Source: Gonapodya prolifera JEL478 (lineage: Eukaryota; Monoblepharomycota; Monoblepharidomycetes; Monoblepharidales; Gonapodyaceae). From it: DNA of 64,000 nucleotides. The stretch spans positions 32,401-96,400 of the forward strand of contig KQ965817.1 of NCBI GenBank assembly GCA_001574975.1, read 5' to 3'. The notes beneath the pieces are model-generated. The model saw only the letters and a list, made by a program, of their open reading frames with translations, did not search any database and was not told where the DNA came from. The position numbers and the translations under genes were made by a program. Position 1 is the first letter of the stretch. Each line of letters opens with the position of its first letter. This document shows, in pieces, positions 46,408 through 64,000 of this stretch.

Positions 46408-46546
46408 CGGGGAGTTTGACACAGAAGTTGAAAATTAGGACTTGGTGTCGACCACAGACACTTGAGCCGACCATGACCGCCCTTCTTGTGCCAGCGCCCT
46501 GAGTGTGCCCTTAGCAAAGTAAAACTTGCTCACTCCTGCTCACACT
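46408..46546. promoter_or_regulatory. 139-nt bidirectional promoter region between two secretory genes
   Basis: The signal-peptide starts at 46407 (minus) and 46547 (plus) are only 139 nt apart, so their promoters must overlap. CTCACTCCTGCTCACAC near the plus-strand start is pyrimidine-rich, as common in fungal leaders. Confidence 0.4.
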
Positions 46547-47444
46547 ATGTACCAACGTTTCCTATCTGTATGTGTGGTTGTTCTCATTGCCCTTGCATGC
46601 TTTGGCGGGCAAGCGCCAAGGGCTCACGGCCAAACCATTCGGGATCATTGAAGCACTTTATGACCAATCCCGGGTGTACTGGCCATGGCCAGACGGACCA
46701 TTACTACAGGTCCAGTTCCCGTGGCCTCGGGGACAGTGCTGCATCAGCAATTCCACTTGCAAGGCGGGACAGGATATCTGCGTCTTTTGTCGGCATGGGC
46801 GAGTTGTTGGCATCAATCTGCTCAGAGAGGCCCTCTCTGGGCCAATCACATCATTGGAGGGGTTGACTTCCCTGGAGGTTTTGAATCTTGAAGGGGGTGG
46901 ACTTCCCCCACCTAGGAACAACAGCTTTTCCGGTCCCCTTCCAAACCTATCCAACCTTAAAAATCTCACCTACATCGATTTATCACACAACAATCTCTCT
47001 GGAACCATTGATGACCTACTTCCGCCTACGTATATGACATTTTGTGACTTTGGTGAAAACCCAAACGCTTGTGCATCTTCTGGAAATTATGCAGTAACAT
47101 GCAGGGTTCGAAAGTGCTCGACTGGCACCCCGCTGCCTAGTGGTCCTCCAATTGGACAAATTGTTGGAGGAATTGGCGCTGCAGTGTTTGCCTTGTGCTC
47201 GCTTGCAGCTGTGATTGTCTGGTATAGACGCAAAAGCATTGTGACTGAAAAGGGTATAAGTGAGTGGAAGAGATGCCCATTGCAAATTCATCTAGATTGT
47301 GACTATGGCATTGTTTTCAAGTCCCCAAAGAACACATTCCCATCTTTGCCAGGCGAGGGAGATGAGGGCATGAACTTAGAGACTAGATTGTTGAGCAAGA
47401 AAATCAGACTTGCCGTCCGGTGCGAAAGGGTGCAAAGGTCTTAG
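46547..47444 (+). CDS. Plant-type leucine-rich-repeat receptor-like surface protein, frame break after the signal peptide
   Basis: ATG 46547 gives a signal peptide (MYQRFLSVCVVVLIALACFG), but that frame stops near 46650. The next frame carries the body: IIEALYDQSRVYWPWPDG, RGQCCISNSTC and HGRVVGINL, which is the CC...GRVxxLxL N-cap of plant-type LRR ectodomains. LRRs follow: LEGLTSLEVLNLEGGGLP, NNSFSGPLPNLSNLKNLTYI and DLSHNNLSGTIDDLLPP, fitting LxxLxLxxNxLSGxIP. A Cys-rich C-cap, a Pro/Gly stretch and a membrane segment (GGIGAAVFALCSLAAVIVW) followed by YRRKS complete a single-pass receptor-like protein with a short cytoplasmic tail. No kinase domain is present. A one-base change near 46640 would make it continuous. 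Confidence 0.65.
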
Positions 47445-56285: not shown

Positions 56286-59200
56286 TTATTCTGACTCGCC
56301 ATCCCATTTCAACCCGTCTCTTTTAAAAAAGTTCACCACCCTTCTGGCGTCCTCCGTTCCGATCAATCGTATCAATTCGTCCTCACTTAGGTTGGAAACT
56401 GCCAAAAAGTTGCGATATTTTTGCATGATTAACTTGGCGCTCCGAGAGGTGATTCCAGGAAGCGCTCGAAGCATATCTTGCTGGACAGGCGCGAATGACA
56501 CCGTGAGATCGGTAAGGTTATCAACTCCGACAGCACCAGCGTGGTCTGGGTTTGGCTCTTCTTGGTTTTGCTTGCAGGGTGCAAGTCACCAATCAGTATA
56601 AATACGACTTTGTCAAGAAACTCAACGAGGTTACCTTGAGCTCTTCGAATATATCTGCAGTTGTGTGAGGATTTGGTGACCAAACATAACGCAAATTTGG
56701 AAAGCTGAGTGTCAACAGCGTGAGCTTGGATTGCACGTCTTGAAACGAAATCTCCGACTTCACATCTGAGGCCGACTGCCGCGAATACCAGCTGGTTGAG
56801 TAAACATTATCCACAAATTATTCCCCCGAAGACTCACCTGAAAGGAGAACGCCTTATTTGCATCGAACTCAATTAAGAGTGTCGGAAACTTGTAATGCGC
56901 ATTCATCGCCTCTACCTGTGAATATCTTTCAAGCACATAATACGTGATCGGTGATTAGTACGACATCACATCAACAATTAGCGGTGTCTGGATCTCACAA
57001 TCTACCGTTCTTGAACGATCCAATCAAGTCCGAAATACTCTTTCGCTCCACACATATGTTCGGTGTCAGAACGTAATCACCAACTTCGAGCGTGCGTACT
57101 GCGAGCTTATACCCTTTGGCATGGAGCATGGACGGAAGGGACGAGCGGAGTTCGCGCGAGTCGATGACAATCTGAGAACGATGAGATCCACACATTTTGG
57201 GTTGCCAGCACAATCAGTAATTCACGCACAGATCAAACACGTACTGTTGGAACGATCCTCCCAAGGACGGACCTCCCGCCAGCAATTCTGCTATTTGCGA
57301 ATAAGCCGTCGTCCGCGTCAGGTACAACCCTTCCATCCGAATCAATAGGAATTGCCATATTCTGTAATTTCAAGCTTATCAGCTCAGACGCGATTAGACA
57401 TGACATAGCGACACTTCTCACGCTTTTTTCCTTTATGATCCTCTCAAAGCAATCCTTTTCCCTCCTAATCGTGCTCAAATAGGCCTGCTCCTCTAATGAA
57501 TCCTCGTACACCATGAAGTGGACCTTGACCCTTCTCCTTCCACTGTCATCCTCTTCGTCGTCCTCAGCGTTTTCCTTTTTAATTCGGACTCGCTTTCCTC
57601 CAGTAGGTGAGACTGGATCCCCTCGACTTTGAATATGATGCGCACTCCGACCGAACAGAGATCCTTCTTCAGCTGCGTCTCTAGTGGCCTGGTAGCACTC
57701 CACACGCCTCACAAAGCCCGGGTCGGGATCCAGCATAATAATCCAGTCCGGTTTGACACGTTCCAAGAAGCGCGAGTCGTCGTCTGCGGGAAGTGGTGCC
57801 GAGGAAGAATTGGAATACGGTCGCACAATAATCACTGGTTGCTGGTCCTCATCCACAGAGTCTGTCGCAGTCGCAGGATCGATATCAGAACGGGAGGGAT
57901 CAAGAGTCGTGCGGGTCTCCTGATCGTTCTGCTCGATGCTGTAGAGATTTAACCAATATCAGCCCATTCTCACCAACTAATCATTATTTAGCCATACTTA
58001 CAATTTCGCAACTTCCGCAACTTCCTCCTCAAAAGTCAGCATCCGCCCCTTTGCTCTGGCCAAAAACCCCGCTCTTCCTGCGACCACTCCATCACTCCCT
58101 GCTGATCCTGCGTCCTCCTTCTCTTTGAGAAGACTTTGTCCCTTAATTCGTCTTCGCTTTCCCGGCGGAGGTGCTCCCGGTGCACCTCGACCACGAGAAG
58201 AGACTCCACCCCGGTTTGACTGTGCTGTGGAAGCTCCCCCCGTTGAACGACCCCGGGATCCAAGACGGCCTTTCCACTTGAAGTAGTTGACCAAGTAGCG
58301 AAGCAGCAAAGGTTGTACTGGATCACGACCAGATGAGACCTCGCTGCCTGGCGCGCGAAGTCCACTCAAAGTTCGTCGACTGCTCTGATCAGCACTGCGA
58401 CTCTCGCTTTCTCCATCGCTATCGCCGCCGCCCACAGTCTCAACGGCCTCCTCCCCTCCCTCTACTTCCCCTGGGACAATATCTTCTCCATCATCCTCGT
58501 CTTCCGCTTCGCTGTCTTCCTCATCCTCTCTCCGTTTTCTCTTGCCGTTTGTCCGCATTGTCCCCAGTGCGTCGCCTCTCCTCACACCGATTCCTGCCCC
58601 CTCAATGAGCTCACGCGCAACCTTGGCCCCACGGTCCCCATTGGTAAGAACGACAATGGGACCTGGCGGTTGTCCGCCAGAGTCCACAGCTCGAGCAACC
58701 ATCGCGTCTCTTTCAACGAGAACTTCAGACAGAACTCCCAACAAGGCCCGCCATTTGGGCGGTGGGTCCAATGTGGGTGTCGTCCTCGGGGGCAAGCCGG
58801 GGTGTGCACCAGGTGCTCCCTCTGCAACTGTTTCAACTTGGTGCATCCTGTAGCACCGTTTGCGACCCACTTCGACCACAGTCTGACCGGCATCGGTAAG
58901 AAGCCAAGGATGGCGCTCGGGATTTCGAAGCGGGTTGGCGGGGTTGCGGGGGTCCGGGAGTGACGCGAAAAGGAGGGAGTCGAGGAGGGCGAGGTGAGTG
59001 ACTGGATCAGTGTGGAGCAGCGAGCTAGGGTGGATTCGTCAGGGCGGACACTCTATCATGTGAGATGTCCGAACGGAAGCTCACTCGAGAAGTCGCTTCA
59101 GCGTCCCAATGTCCCCCACAAGACCTCGAGTCCGAGCAGACAAGAAGTGCCATCTCGGGTCAAGTTGTGCCTGCAAGCTCCTTTCGAACCCTTGCTGCAG

Positions 59201-60849
59201 CGCGGCCGAAAGAGTCAAGTTGTCCGTCTCAAGCTAATTCCAGAATCATGCTAGTCAGACACTGCGTACCCACCCGAAAAAATCTGCAGAAACAAATTAC
59301 CTTTGCGCCAGTTCCCACTTCCCTCAACGTGGCCTCGAGGCACTCCACCAGCCCCGCTTGGGCCGTCCGCATGGGCTCCGACAGAGGCACCCGCACCTCG
59401 ATCAATTGTGGTTGTCGGGCGGACAAGTACAGAGAAGTGTGGAGGTGAAAACTGGTGCCACGTATGGAAGAGGAGAGTGACCGTAAGCATGAAATGAGAC
59501 AAGGCCGTGGCGTAAATGGAACGGACGATGGAAATTTGAAACCTTTCTCGTGCCGGTGCTTGAGGACGGTCTCATAAACACGTCATCCCGACCCCTCTGG
59601 TACGGAATCCCACAAATTTTATCACTAACCCCACCCCAAGCAAACTCACCGCGGCCACACGATACATCTTCTGACAAACAGCGCCCTCATACACTTCTCC
59701 AGCTTCCACATTCCCTGCACGAGCTGCTCTGGTCGGTCCGAAAATGCCTTGATAAACCCGCACTTGTTGTGCGTACGAAAAAGGCGGAGGATGAAGGATT
59801 CAATCGAGAGAGGGTTTATTCTGGTATTTCGGGGGGACATAATTGCAGGTCGATTATGGTGAAAGGCACGTGAAGGTGGATGTTCACCATCTAGAGACTA
59901 GGGCACAGCCAACACGTAAAAACAAGCTCACCGTTCGGCTCTGGCGACCAGGAATCCTTGGCACAGGTGCACGGGAACGACTTCGTTGAGGAGGTCCGCA
60001 ACAAGAATCCGGGAAGTTGTGGCGAGCACACCCCCTTGAAGGTACGCTTCCACCCTGGGGTAAAGGAATTTAAAACTGAGCTAGCTCGGGATGGGCCCAA
60101 GGGGACGAAGAGGTGGCGTACCTCTCGTTGACAGTTGTCATTGTCTCGGTCGTCACAATCTTGAAGTAGTCCGGATCCCCCCACAAATTCGGGTCCACGC
60201 CGTCCATTTCATCCTGTTTGCGGGAGTCAACAAGATCTTGCTTAAGCGCTTCCAATTCTGCCTGGTTCTCGTTGATGAGAAACACGAGATGGTTTGGATG
60301 CGAGAGTAGTTTAATGTAAGTGAGCAGGATTTGGCGAATCGCGAGGCCTCGTGCGACAACGAGTAAAAAGTCGGCGTTCGTATCCAATTGCACTTGTACA
60401 GGGGAAGGCGCCAGAAAGAGCGGTGGAGTGTCCAGGTTGGTGCCATGTATGGTTGTGGATGTTGTGGGTGAGTCCGTGGACTCTATCCCGTCAGACGTAA
60501 GTAATTCTCCCAGCGACCCTTGTTCTTGGCCGGATCCCTCGCGTGATCCACGTGCGCCCGCTCGTCCTCCCGTTTTCGATCGCTCTCGCAATGGTGAGCT
60601 CTCGAGAAGTTTCTGTGTCACTTCTCGCAGACTGTTTGTCAATCGTCCAGCTCGCGTGTTCTCATTTCCCACAGTCTCGTCGTCGTCGATAAGTAGCGAA
60701 CCGTGTGGGTCGTCGGTCGCGGGTTGAACTCCATCGACAGAAGTTTCGAGAGCGTCCCAGTCCACGTTTCCTGTCACACTGTCCTGTTTTGAACTCTCCA
60801 GGTCGCATAGCATCCGTAGATGGAATGGGAGTAGCTGCGAGTATGCCAT
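56286..60849 (-). CDS. RAD1: XPF/Rad1 (ERCC4) structure-specific DNA repair endonuclease
   Basis: The minus strand from ATG 60849 reads a complete XPF through about a dozen exons. The inactive helicase-like N-terminus has [20 protein letters not shown], then after the first intron [40 protein letters not shown] and [10 protein letters not shown], then [20 protein letters not shown] and [20 protein letters not shown] with [20 protein letters not shown]. An acidic, Ser/Gly-rich central linker follows. The nuclease domain has [20 protein letters not shown] and [16 protein letters not shown] (the GDxnERKx3D catalytic motif), then [20 protein letters not shown]. The C-terminal tandem helix-hairpin-helix region ends [20 protein letters not shown] and [16 protein letters not shown]. 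With its ERCC1/Rad10 partner the enzyme cuts 5' of UV lesions. The exon join after NGRL uses donor GTGAGA and acceptor GAAAG by phase. The gene appears intact. Confidence 0.9.
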
Positions 60850-60999
60850 TGTTTTGAAGCGGAGGGGGAAGTGGTGTTTTAACAGTAAAGCGAATAATCC
60901 TGTTTGCGAAGACACCAATTGGAGTCGTCTCATTCAGCATATCTAATGTAGACATCGCCGAAGTCGCTGTCGAGGCGCTATTGGTATAAATACTATTCC

Positions 61000-63048
61000 T
61001 TAAGTACAAGTCTTCTCTATGAAACAGGAACCTTGATAACCTTTTTGGAGGCAAACTCCCGTTCCGCTAATGTCGCACGCTGGGTTCGGTCCGTCTACTC
61101 CACTTGGAGTGGTGCTAGTTTGTGCGTTAATGGATGGAAAGCCAGAGCATATGAGCTCAGGCCGCCAAGTACAAGGTCGATCAGAATTGCTTCGCAATGA
61201 CACTCAGAGAGACTTACAGTGACCCCTTTAGATTCACGTTGTTCTGAGCCCCAAAATACGCCAGATGCGGGAGCTTCGAGAAGTCAGGTATTGTGCCATT
61301 GTGATTGTTGTTTGCGACCCCAAGGTACTGCAGCTTTGGCAACGTCGTTAGCGAAGTTGGAATTGGTCCGAAAAGCCCTGCGTTGTTTTGAATGGAAACA
61401 ATGTAGAGATCCTTCAAGTCTCCGAGGCAAGCTGGGATTGTTCCGGTGATGTTTGGCATGAAAGGAAAGGAAAGAATTTGAAGCTTCTTCAAGCTGCAGA
61501 TGTCATCCGTTATTTTGCCAGTAAAAGTGTCATCTCTGCTGAGCGCAAGAACTTCCAGTGGAGGGAAGTATGTGCCGATCTTCGCGAGCGTCGTTGATAA
61601 CGGAGCCTGCAGGTTCAACGACAGAAGCTCAAGTTTCCGGATCACTCCGTTGGCGCAATCGGCAAAGCTTAAGATGCAAAAGAGAGTGAAATTGTCAACA
61701 GCTAGACTTCTGTCACAGTTTCCGTAACGTACCCAGAATTACAGCAATCGTCGCCCAAGTAAAAGCCCGGCAAAAAAGACTGCAGCTTTGCGCAGTCGCC
61801 GAGCTGTGGCTTCGTAGATGGACCGCAGAGCTGATTGTTCGGGTCCCAGTGTTGTTGAATCAAGTACTTTCGACCGTTCCATTGAACGTTGTACCAATAT
61901 CCCAGCGGATCCTCCTGCACGCCAACACCGTAGGTAACTTGGGAAAACATGCATAAGTGACCCTGAAGGGCAATGGGTTCGTTTCCTTCGAACTCACATT
62001 GACATTGATCAGCTGTTTAAAGTGCAGTGCAGAAGCTGATCAGCTTTTGTGTGAGATTACGCGAATATGCAGCTCATGAACGCACCATTCTCGTTTCCAT
62101 CGGCAGTTAGCTAACCTTCGACATTAGTCTAGTTGTAAACGGTGCGGATGAATGAGCAGACCGTTCCGTTTTACTAAATTAGCGAACGAAGTTCGGTTCA
62201 CACCGTTTCACTCACCGGGGTCGTCGTACTCTCAGCAATCTGTAGAATAAATATGTGACTCAGTCTATGCGTTTCATCCTCCACGGCGAGGTTCGAAAAT
62301 ACCTGGAAAGTTGGGATTGATTCTTTTCACAGTGCTGTTATTGTCCGTTGCGTCCTGGAAATCCGACTGAATCGATGTGTGAACTATTTCACGCGATTTG
62401 GAGATTCGATTAGCCTCGTGTGGTCGTGACGGGGTCATTAACCACCGCCGCAGAAGTATCCCTCGGTGACATGTTCATCCAAGAGAACTATGTAAATGCC
62501 ACCTTTGAGGTTGGTTGGAAGTCTTCCCTGCGATATGCGCGAGTACACTGGAAGACAGATAAGAGTGCTCCATTGCAACTTAACTCTGACAACGTTCGAA
62601 TATGAATGTGACTCACCGATTCGTGAAATGTCGGAGTGCTGCAGGGCGTTCGGGGATTTCCCTAGCGAGTAGTTATCAGTTGACCGAAGGTCCCAGTGTT
62701 ACGCTGGATATAATGTATTTCCGAATGGCGAGGTTTGTGTCGTTTGCTGTGTAATACCTAGCGTTGAGGTGGCGGAGCGGTCCCAATCAACGCACGTGGC
62801 GACATTTTCTCAACATGAAAGGCAGTGGTGGAAAACACCCACATGGTGTTGATTTTCCAAAAGTCACTCGTGTGCAGCCCCTTGATAAAGTCACTTACGA
62901 TCGCTCTGTCAGCGTCGGGCCATTGCCCGTACCAAACTATGGAGACGCGCCAAACTTCGTTAGACCATGTGCCTTTTGCATCGCCCCTTCCTGCGAGAGC
63001 GAATAAGGCCAAGGAAACAAAGAAGCTCAAAAACGCTCTCCGAGCCAT
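61000..63048 (-). CDS. Secreted EXORDIUM/PHI-1-like protein fused to plant-type leucine-rich repeats
   Basis: The minus strand starts at ATG 63048 with a signal peptide (MARRAFLSFFVSLALFALAG). RVSIVWYGQWPDADRAIVSD with FIKGL and, across an intron at 62842-62758, INTMYYTANDT match the N-terminal part of the EXORDIUM/phosphate-induced-1 family (IWYGxFxxxQKAIISDF...KYY). NYSLGKSPNALQHSDISRI and GGIYIVLLDEHVTEGYFCGG continue the match. The Cys-rich middle of that family is not visible. The exon 61950-61702 carries its C-terminal signature (GYWYNVQWNGRKYLIQQHWD) and in the same open frame an LRR N-cap (GDCAKLQSFLPG, DDCCNSG). The next exon holds LRRs (LQILSFPFMPNITGTIPACL, GPIPTSLTTLPKLQYLGVAN). 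A final exon ends with a Cys-rich DISGTGVCLQKGYQGSCF. One frame change lies near 62685. The product is probably extracellular and wall-associated. Confidence 0.65.
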
Positions 63049-64000
63049 TTCAGTGAGGGATACTAAAGACGGAGCATCAGCGAGATATAAATGGAGTTCC
63101 GAAATCAGCGTAAGGTAGTTCACCTGAAAAAGCAATAATCAGCGGCGATTTCAGAGTGAAAACGTCTACTTCCGTTACGCTGTTCCTCCCAAGCGACGGG
63201 TAAAGATTGGAATGAAATGACCGAAAGATTCGAGAGACCCGAATGACCCTGCCTTATGACCTGCCCGTCAGTCCTCGTCGTGACTCTTCGTGGCAAAATT
63301 CCGCGCCAAGATCACTGAGTCACTCTCGTGGCGGTTGGAGGGTATTGCTCTCTGAGAGAGATTGTTCGGACACACAGACAGGCGGACAAGCGGACAAACA
63401 GGGGGATTCTCTGACCGGTGCCATATTACGCTACCCTCTATGCCGGTGGATCACTGCGGTAGGATGTCAGAGAACCCACCACCGGCGGCAGCGTCGTCAA
63501 GTCTAAGTACACGTCAAATAAGTTAAACGCCAGTACCGCAGCTGGACCCTCTTGATGGTTGTAAAAGATGGAGTGTCCTCATCACCCGTTGCTCGTTTCG
63601 TGCTCCCGCAGACACGCGCATCATTGATTGGGGGTCGCAAGGCGACACCCGGCAAGGAGACTCGGCACGTTGACAGACCCAGCCCGCGCCCCCTTGTCGC
63701 TATTGATGTCTCCGGAGGAGTGGAGCCTTAAGCGATCGGGAATCTTGGTGGTGTTAGGGAATAGTCTGGTAATCCAGGCCCAACGGTGACCTTGTCCGAG
63801 CGCTTGCTGCGGTTGCACTCGCGGGCCGCGTTGGGTCTGGAACTTTGCGCGGGCACTTTTGTCGAAACCGCATTGCACACGACCGGCCTCCGGAATAACG
63901 GGGAAAAAAATTCACATTGAAGTTCAAGATCAGAAGCATCCTAGACGTCGGCCGGAAGCAATCCTCGGACTCTCTCTCTCCTTGTGCGTGCTCGTGTGTG
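63049..64000. other. Right-end intergenic region without a supported gene
   Basis: Contains the upstream region of the EXORDIUM-LRR gene. A short repeat (ACAGGCGGACAAGCGGACAA) is at 63379-63398. A minus-strand open frame at 63621-63878 is Arg/Gly-biased and not recognisable. Confidence 0.4.

Follow-up and report, generated by a model that had tools for sequence, protein, structure and literature searches.

A decayed copy of a gene family that joins an EXORDIUM domain to plant-type LRRs

Introduction

The plant protein EXORDIUM (EXO) is apoplastic and is needed for leaf cell expansion, and the cited sections of that 2009 report place the EXO family in plants and one bacterium, with no fungal homologs (PMC2661892). 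The mode and the biochemical action of plant EXO are called unknown in the excerpted text of another study, which describes no similarity to known domains besides the PHI1 region (PMC3691544). In 2016, nine EXO copies were reported from Batrachochytrium dendrobatidis and a plant origin was published for them (PMC5005798). This ‘Phosphate-responsive 1 family’ is multi-copy and is reported as extracellular or secreted and under purifying selection (PMC5005798), and the ‘phosphate-induced proteins’ of Tribe 8 in Batrachochytrium and relatives are likewise multi-copy and reported as extracellular or secreted (PMC9926174). Both families carry the same domain name as the genes described here, with which they are compared by description only, and the portions of the two papers cited here do not mention an LRR fusion (PMC5005798, PMC9926174). 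LRR receptors are almost absent from fungi according to a survey of 101 genomes, which lists 15 candidates for secreted LRR proteins, spread over 10 species (PMC2939053), and neither EXO nor LRR terms were found in the available text of a chytrid genome paper (PMC5364385).

The window analyzed here is a stretch of 64,000 nucleotides (C87:32401-96400) from a 47.56-Mb genome of 207 contigs, which are numbered below with the prefix C. The segment at 61000-63048 is one copy, now decayed, from a genuine gene family in which an EXORDIUM domain is joined to plant-type LRRs. The intact members resemble plant EXORDIUM/PHI-1 proteins (PF04674) in matching the Phi_1 profile nearly end to end (81-104 bits) and in having a leader-like N-terminus, but they differ in the addition of an LRR module and a Cys-rich tail. 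The single-domain architecture of plant EXO is not what is seen here: the LRR module is fused at 13 loci, and the family is therefore a variant rather than a typical member of EXORDIUM/PHI-1. The repeats are of the plant type found in plant LRR receptor ectodomains (FLS2, GSO1, and MIK2), which are the best sequence matches in the PDB; in contrast to those receptors, the fusion has no transmembrane-like stretch and no kinase, and its LRR module is short and placed behind EXO. Other LRR genes in this genome (e.g., C94:72.6k, C11:255k, and window 46515-47444) have similar repeats, and several have a similar N-cap, whereas several have, by eye, a stalk and a transmembrane-like stretch in place of EXO and the Cys-rich tail.

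The initial annotation of the window knew of no described EXO-LRR chimera. We likewise found no report of such a fusion in the open-access literature searched, but EXO itself was already known in chytrids (PMC5005798). Within the reach of these searches, the genes combine two known families in an architecture that is new.

Two marker families bear on the host. The genome has two matches over the cut-off to the chitin-synthase N-domain (PF08407) and one to NYD-SP28 (PF14772), families that we take to mark fungi and flagella, respectively; neither matched in 14 control genomes, which is a weak contrast. These markers fit a zoosporic-fungus host.

Structure of the Window Copy

The gene in the window was delimited by spliced alignment to an intact paralog, and its features are as follows.

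61000-63048, minus strand: decayed EXORDIUM-LRR fusion gene, whole extent, from the ATG at 63048 to the TAA at 61002-61000
62843-63048, minus strand: exon 1, hydrophobic leader and start of Phi_1 (VSIVWYGQW...FWKINTM)
62681-62684, minus strand: one-base frameshift (extra base near 62682) between SVTLGPSV and DNYSLGK, from genomic alignment with two paralogs
62435-62440, minus strand: in-frame TAA TGA at the end of the YFCGGG exon, with the splice donor of the paralog lost
62241-62242, minus strand: breakpoint of a 140-bp deletion through which most of the core exon is lost (in the paralog: SPNGNPGVDSMLSVIAHE), from genomic alignment
61733-61937, minus strand: joint exon, with the Phi_1 C-terminus YWYNVQWNGRKYLIQQHWDPNNQLC and the first half of the N-cap GDCAKLQSFLPGFYLGDDCCNSG; homologous exon at 14 loci with an LRR-exon match
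61668-61732, minus strand: 65-nt GT-AG intron of phase 2 that interrupts the LRR N-cap; all six intact paralogs have it at this residue and in this phase
61218-61667, minus strand: LRR exon, with the second half of the N-cap FADCANGVIRKLEL and plant-type repeats; 100% self match, 25 genome matches
61000-61114, minus strand: last exon, with a Cys-rich cap at the C-terminus (ACDISGTGVCLQKGYQG-SCFIEKTC) and the stop codon

On the minus strand, the gene begins at 63048 with MARRAFLSFFVSLALFALAGRGDA. The open reading frame at 61702-62016 (minus) contains both the EXO signature WYNVQWNGRKYLIQQHWDPN and the N-cap motif DDCCNSG, bearing out the earlier claim that the two lie in one frame, and the spliced model places them in one exon (61937-61733). 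The LxGxIP-type repeats that the initial annotation described as following are present, but they belong to the next exon (61667-61218), past the 65-nt intron. The extent proposed for the gene, 61000-63048, agrees with its ATG and TAA. The exon boundaries given here and for the paralogs follow from predicted splicing. An Rfam search of the window found no family reaching its gathering threshold.

The neighboring gene at window ~57200-60850 (minus) presumably resembles the XPF/RAD1 nuclease; the two pieces of it tested had no match in Pfam.

Decay of the Window Copy

Relative to its paralogs on contigs C19 and C23, the window copy lacks ~111 bp at 62977/62978, 82 bp of which are exon in the C23 model, and 138 bp of the 140-bp deletion downstream are also exon. 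Spliced alignment against an intact paralog yields deletions, two frameshifts, and one stop. Identity over aligned bases is 1937/2138 to the C19 copy, the closest relative, which also carries frameshifts and a stop, and 1353/2034 to the C23 copy. The Phi_1 profile recovers an N-terminal piece, comprising exon 1 and part of the next exon, at 27.3 bits, and a C-terminal piece at 12.2 bits (cut-off 25). The PF04674 search that had been proposed as a check on this copy is thus passed by its N-terminal piece and failed by its C-terminal piece, and the LRR piece falls under all listed LRR cut-offs in Pfam. The window copy of the family is a pseudogene because of the ~111-bp and 140-bp losses, the one-base shift, and the in-frame stops; with the donor lost as well, it is not a working gene.

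Intact Members of the Family

The C23 paralog was modeled by hand, after which 20 excised loci, together with the window, were modeled with a spliced aligner. The C23 model has 11 exons, ten GT-AG introns of 53-90 nt, and 525 residues followed by a stop. Models free of frameshifts and stops with at least one query were obtained for six of the 13 fusion loci (C1:1073k, C23:433k, C87:126k, C119:124k, C137:64k, and C156:46k). Those on C1 and C137 were lesion-free only when a nearer paralog served as query; other queries gave at least one lesion. The member at C87:126k is an intact sister on the window's own contig. Two of the intact copies are located as follows.

C23:432.3-434.7k: intact copy
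C87:124.4-126.9k: intact copy

The stop codon directly follows the model in four intact members and lies three codons further on in C137 and nine further on in C156, so that the gap from model end to stop is 0-9 residues. The proteins are ~525-574 amino acids long when, in four cases, an in-frame start upstream, identified by eye, is included. The models of the other seven loci (the window, C19, C22:430k, C33, C69, C84:75k, and C84:164k) each have at least one lesion. For C69 and C84:164k, at least one query leaves just one frameshift, possibly the result of misassembly or of a faulty model.

All six intact members match Phi_1 well above the 25-bit cut-off (C23, 104.1; C87:126k, 102.7; C119, 99.9; C137, 94.3; C156, 83.6; C1, 81.2), over nearly the whole 276-position profile (e.g., 9-273 of 276), and the PF04674 check is passed here without exception. 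Five of them also pass LRR_1 (23.0, 23.2, 21.7, 28.3, and 22.2; cut-off 20.6), and the sixth, at 19.1, is short by 1.5 bits. The proposed fusion is accordingly supported in the paralogs, with both halves above Pfam cut-offs in five of six and the sixth short on LRR_1 only.

Against the PDB, the intact C23 fusion matched 89 sequences at E ≤ 0.01. The best 60 of these 89 are by name plant LRR receptors or co-receptors, with a few generic kinase names, and in none of the 60 does the best stretch lie within the body of the EXO domain. The best match to the LRR part of the intact paralog is a plant LRR receptor at 7.6e-57. NCBIfam gave matches to the intact fusion in the LRR region only, far under their cut-offs.

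Leader-like N-termini are present in all six intact models, as judged by hydropathy and by eye. Past the leader, hydropathy detected no transmembrane-like stretch in any intact model (maximum KD19 past residue 60, 1.30), and thus no transmembrane helix behind the LRR as expected of a receptor. The earlier suggestion of a surface protein, taken as a membrane-anchored one, is therefore not upheld by these hydropathy profiles. The intact fusion proteins are predicted to be secreted, soluble or wall-bound, rather than membrane receptors.

Distribution and Duplication in the Genome

Searched with the LRR exon, the genome gave 25 matches in 23 grouped loci, of which 14 are fusion loci, eight are LRR-only, and one (C96) is an LRR fragment. 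With the EXO C-terminal exon, 22 matches were found and grouped as 20 loci; the same 14 have an LRR-exon match, and the remaining six have none. The whole fusion architecture is found at 13 loci, the 14th joint locus (C22:181k) being a fragment. The PF04674 profile matched 10 times, exon by exon, at eight loci of the genome, seven of which are fusion loci; the 14 control genomes gave no match. Because the searches were made exon by exon, these locus counts are lower bounds. The Cys-rich tail of a paralog gave 11 matches, every one in a fusion locus.

Among the six EXO-like loci without an LRR match, the alignments at C23:129k, C21:37k, and C53:249k contain stops and frameshifts, and C70, C24, and C1:501k are short EXO pieces that sit in a repeat common to them. 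No intact stand-alone EXO gene was seen in the genome by the exon-wise search, which is not exhaustive. Given these six loci, a stand-alone EXO gene may formerly have existed in the genome. The short EXO pieces L021, L022, and L023 lie within a common repeat of ~1.3-2 kb (82-86% identity), which includes a ~215-bp fragment resembling the C1 fusion gene; they were perhaps captured by a mobile element.

The window copy itself lies in a duplicated block.

59112-63755, no strand assigned: portion of a larger block duplicated on contig C19, 89-93% identity, in three aligned pieces here

Three pieces of C19 (L009, L057, and L058) are colinear with window 26.1-30.0k and 51.3-63.8k at 84-93% identity, and one further short C19 match lies at window 34.6k, the comparison of the interval being limited to the three cut pieces. 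Flanks are also common to the C23/C22 and C137/C33 pairs, with 74-84% identity in the matched pieces. The C19 duplicate and the common flanks suggest genome duplication, hybrid origin, or uncollapsed divergent haplotypes.

A Probable Single Fusion Followed by Duplication

The N-cap intron lies at the same residue and in phase 2 in all six intact members, with the junction NSG^F/Y (SSG^Y in C1). The NG86 dN/dS ratios for the EXO and LRR halves, respectively, are 0.10 and 0.18 for C23 versus C87:126k, 0.10 and 0.13 for C156 versus C137, and 0.23 and 0.26 for C119 versus C1. Only these three pairs were usable (dS 1.4-2.4), the other 11 of the 14 computed pairs being saturated in at least one half, and the ratios are rough because dS is high or saturated. 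Trees of the EXO and LRR halves from the 13 loci, with broken copies included and X placed at lesions, have seven of 10 splits in common, compared with a mean of 0.22 and a maximum of two in 2000 label shuffles. The low dN/dS in both halves and the largely congruent trees point to a single fusion, followed by duplication.

Function and Alternative Explanations

The six intact members encode a hydrophobic leader, the EXORDIUM/PHI-1 domain in full, a plant-type LRR module capped by cysteines, and a short tail rich in Cys. We consider it somewhat probable (about 0.6) that the proteins are secreted and act in wall or substrate recognition. The EXO domain would anchor or act at the extracellular wall or matrix, in keeping with the apoplastic location of plant EXO, and the LRR module would bind a protein or glycan partner. 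The fusion would then work as a secreted wall- or substrate-recognition protein, and duplicated members might differ in their binding target. A natural fusion of EXO, in plants a growth regulator, to a likely binding module offers a handle on how the EXO domain is used outside plants, and the family provides a testable set of apparently secreted fungal LRR proteins.

The fusion could be an artifact in which an EXORDIUM gene and a neighboring LRR gene have been misread as one. The LRR half does resemble stand-alone LRR genes of the genome. Yet the exon that ends Phi_1 also encodes the first half of the N-cap and the next exon the second half, an arrangement that occurs at 13 loci, with the intron conserved in all six intact models. 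Moreover, the linker from QLC to DDCC or NDCC contains no methionine in any of the six. On the splitting of the N-cap over the joint exon and the next at 13 loci, the reading as two separate genes was rejected, and we regard it as highly improbable. A similarly slight chance is left to a reading in which the window copy is no pseudogene but a shortened form that still functions. In its favor, the LRR exon is open, at 74% identity to that of an intact paralog, and the exon 1 frame stays open across the 111-bp gap. Against this stand the one-base shift, the TAA TGA, the donor loss, and the absence of most of the core exon, as well as the frameshifts and stop in its nearest relative on C19.

The third alternative leaves the fusion in place and concerns its activity. 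The EXO half could be a degenerate zinc-protease-like domain, with an HExxE motif, that is targeted by the LRR and has an enzymatic role. HEIAE or HEISE is kept in four of the six intact members, and bacterial relatives retain motifs such as HELEEATTDPDLNAWYD..ENADKC. The H-E pair is lost, however, in the two other intact members, which argues against one common catalytic role, and HExxE is not known as a catalytic site. The sole fold attempted, an AlphaFold2 prediction from a Verrucomicrobia protein and one relative, was unusable (mean pLDDT 32.8). We therefore consider an enzymatic EXO half unlikely, and prefer secreted recognition as the role of the family.

Origin of the Two Halves

Eight LRR-only loci were cut for comparison, and several have the N-cap DC...L....CC...C.NGRI..L. 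The LRR parts of the fusion match LRR-only loci with E-values down to 4e-11, at 24-46% identity among the 14 alignments listed. The LRR half is likely native, because further LRR genes of this genome have a similar N-cap, and it follows directly on the Phi_1 domain.

By eye, L025, L026, L028, L029, and L030 were recognized as LRR proteins that have a stalk and a stretch both hydrophobic and transmembrane-like, and Pfam confirmed the LRR for L026, L028, and L029. These five conflict with the published finding that fungi have almost no such proteins. Within the window, 46515-47444 (plus) is a plant-type LRR gene with a Cys-rich N-cap and a transmembrane-like stretch followed by a tail (LRR_4, 27.6 bits; cut-off 27), and it looks like a receptor-like protein.

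For the EXO half, relatives were found in bacteria. Bacterial Phi_1 matches from the Candidatus Solibacter phylum, a Verrucomicrobia MAG, and a Gemmatirosa plasmid score 39.8-118 bits, the Gemmatirosa plasmid protein lying at the lower end (24% identity, 39.8 bits). They occur in two MAGs and, within the phylum to which the Solibacter MAG belongs, in 17 of the 396 genomes sampled. In contig profile scans, none of 29 stretches was confirmed with the fusion alignment, and two of 27 with the Gemmatirosa protein. ENADxC-like motifs and NGN.G.D...S..AHE..E, also given as NGN.G.D.M.S...AHE..E, are common to the fusion members and the bacterial frames examined. Apart from a short Solibacter frame, the 20 bacterial matches are 312-392 amino acids long, which is too short to add such an LRR module.

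It is possible, though we hold the idea as doubtful, that an EXORDIUM domain of foreign source, perhaps from bacteria and not from plants, was fused once to the host's own LRR ectodomain and that the product then expanded and diversified into a new class of secreted recognition proteins in a zoosporic fungus. If true, fungi would have in this family a counterpart to the wall-linked LRR proteins of plants, with consequences for the claim that they nearly lack LRR-based recognition. The bacterial Phi_1 relatives also invite a re-test of the plant-to-chytrid transfer as published in the cited part of PMC5005798. In one bacterial genome, four Phi_1 matches lie in a row on one strand (G259:C1:227321-232230).
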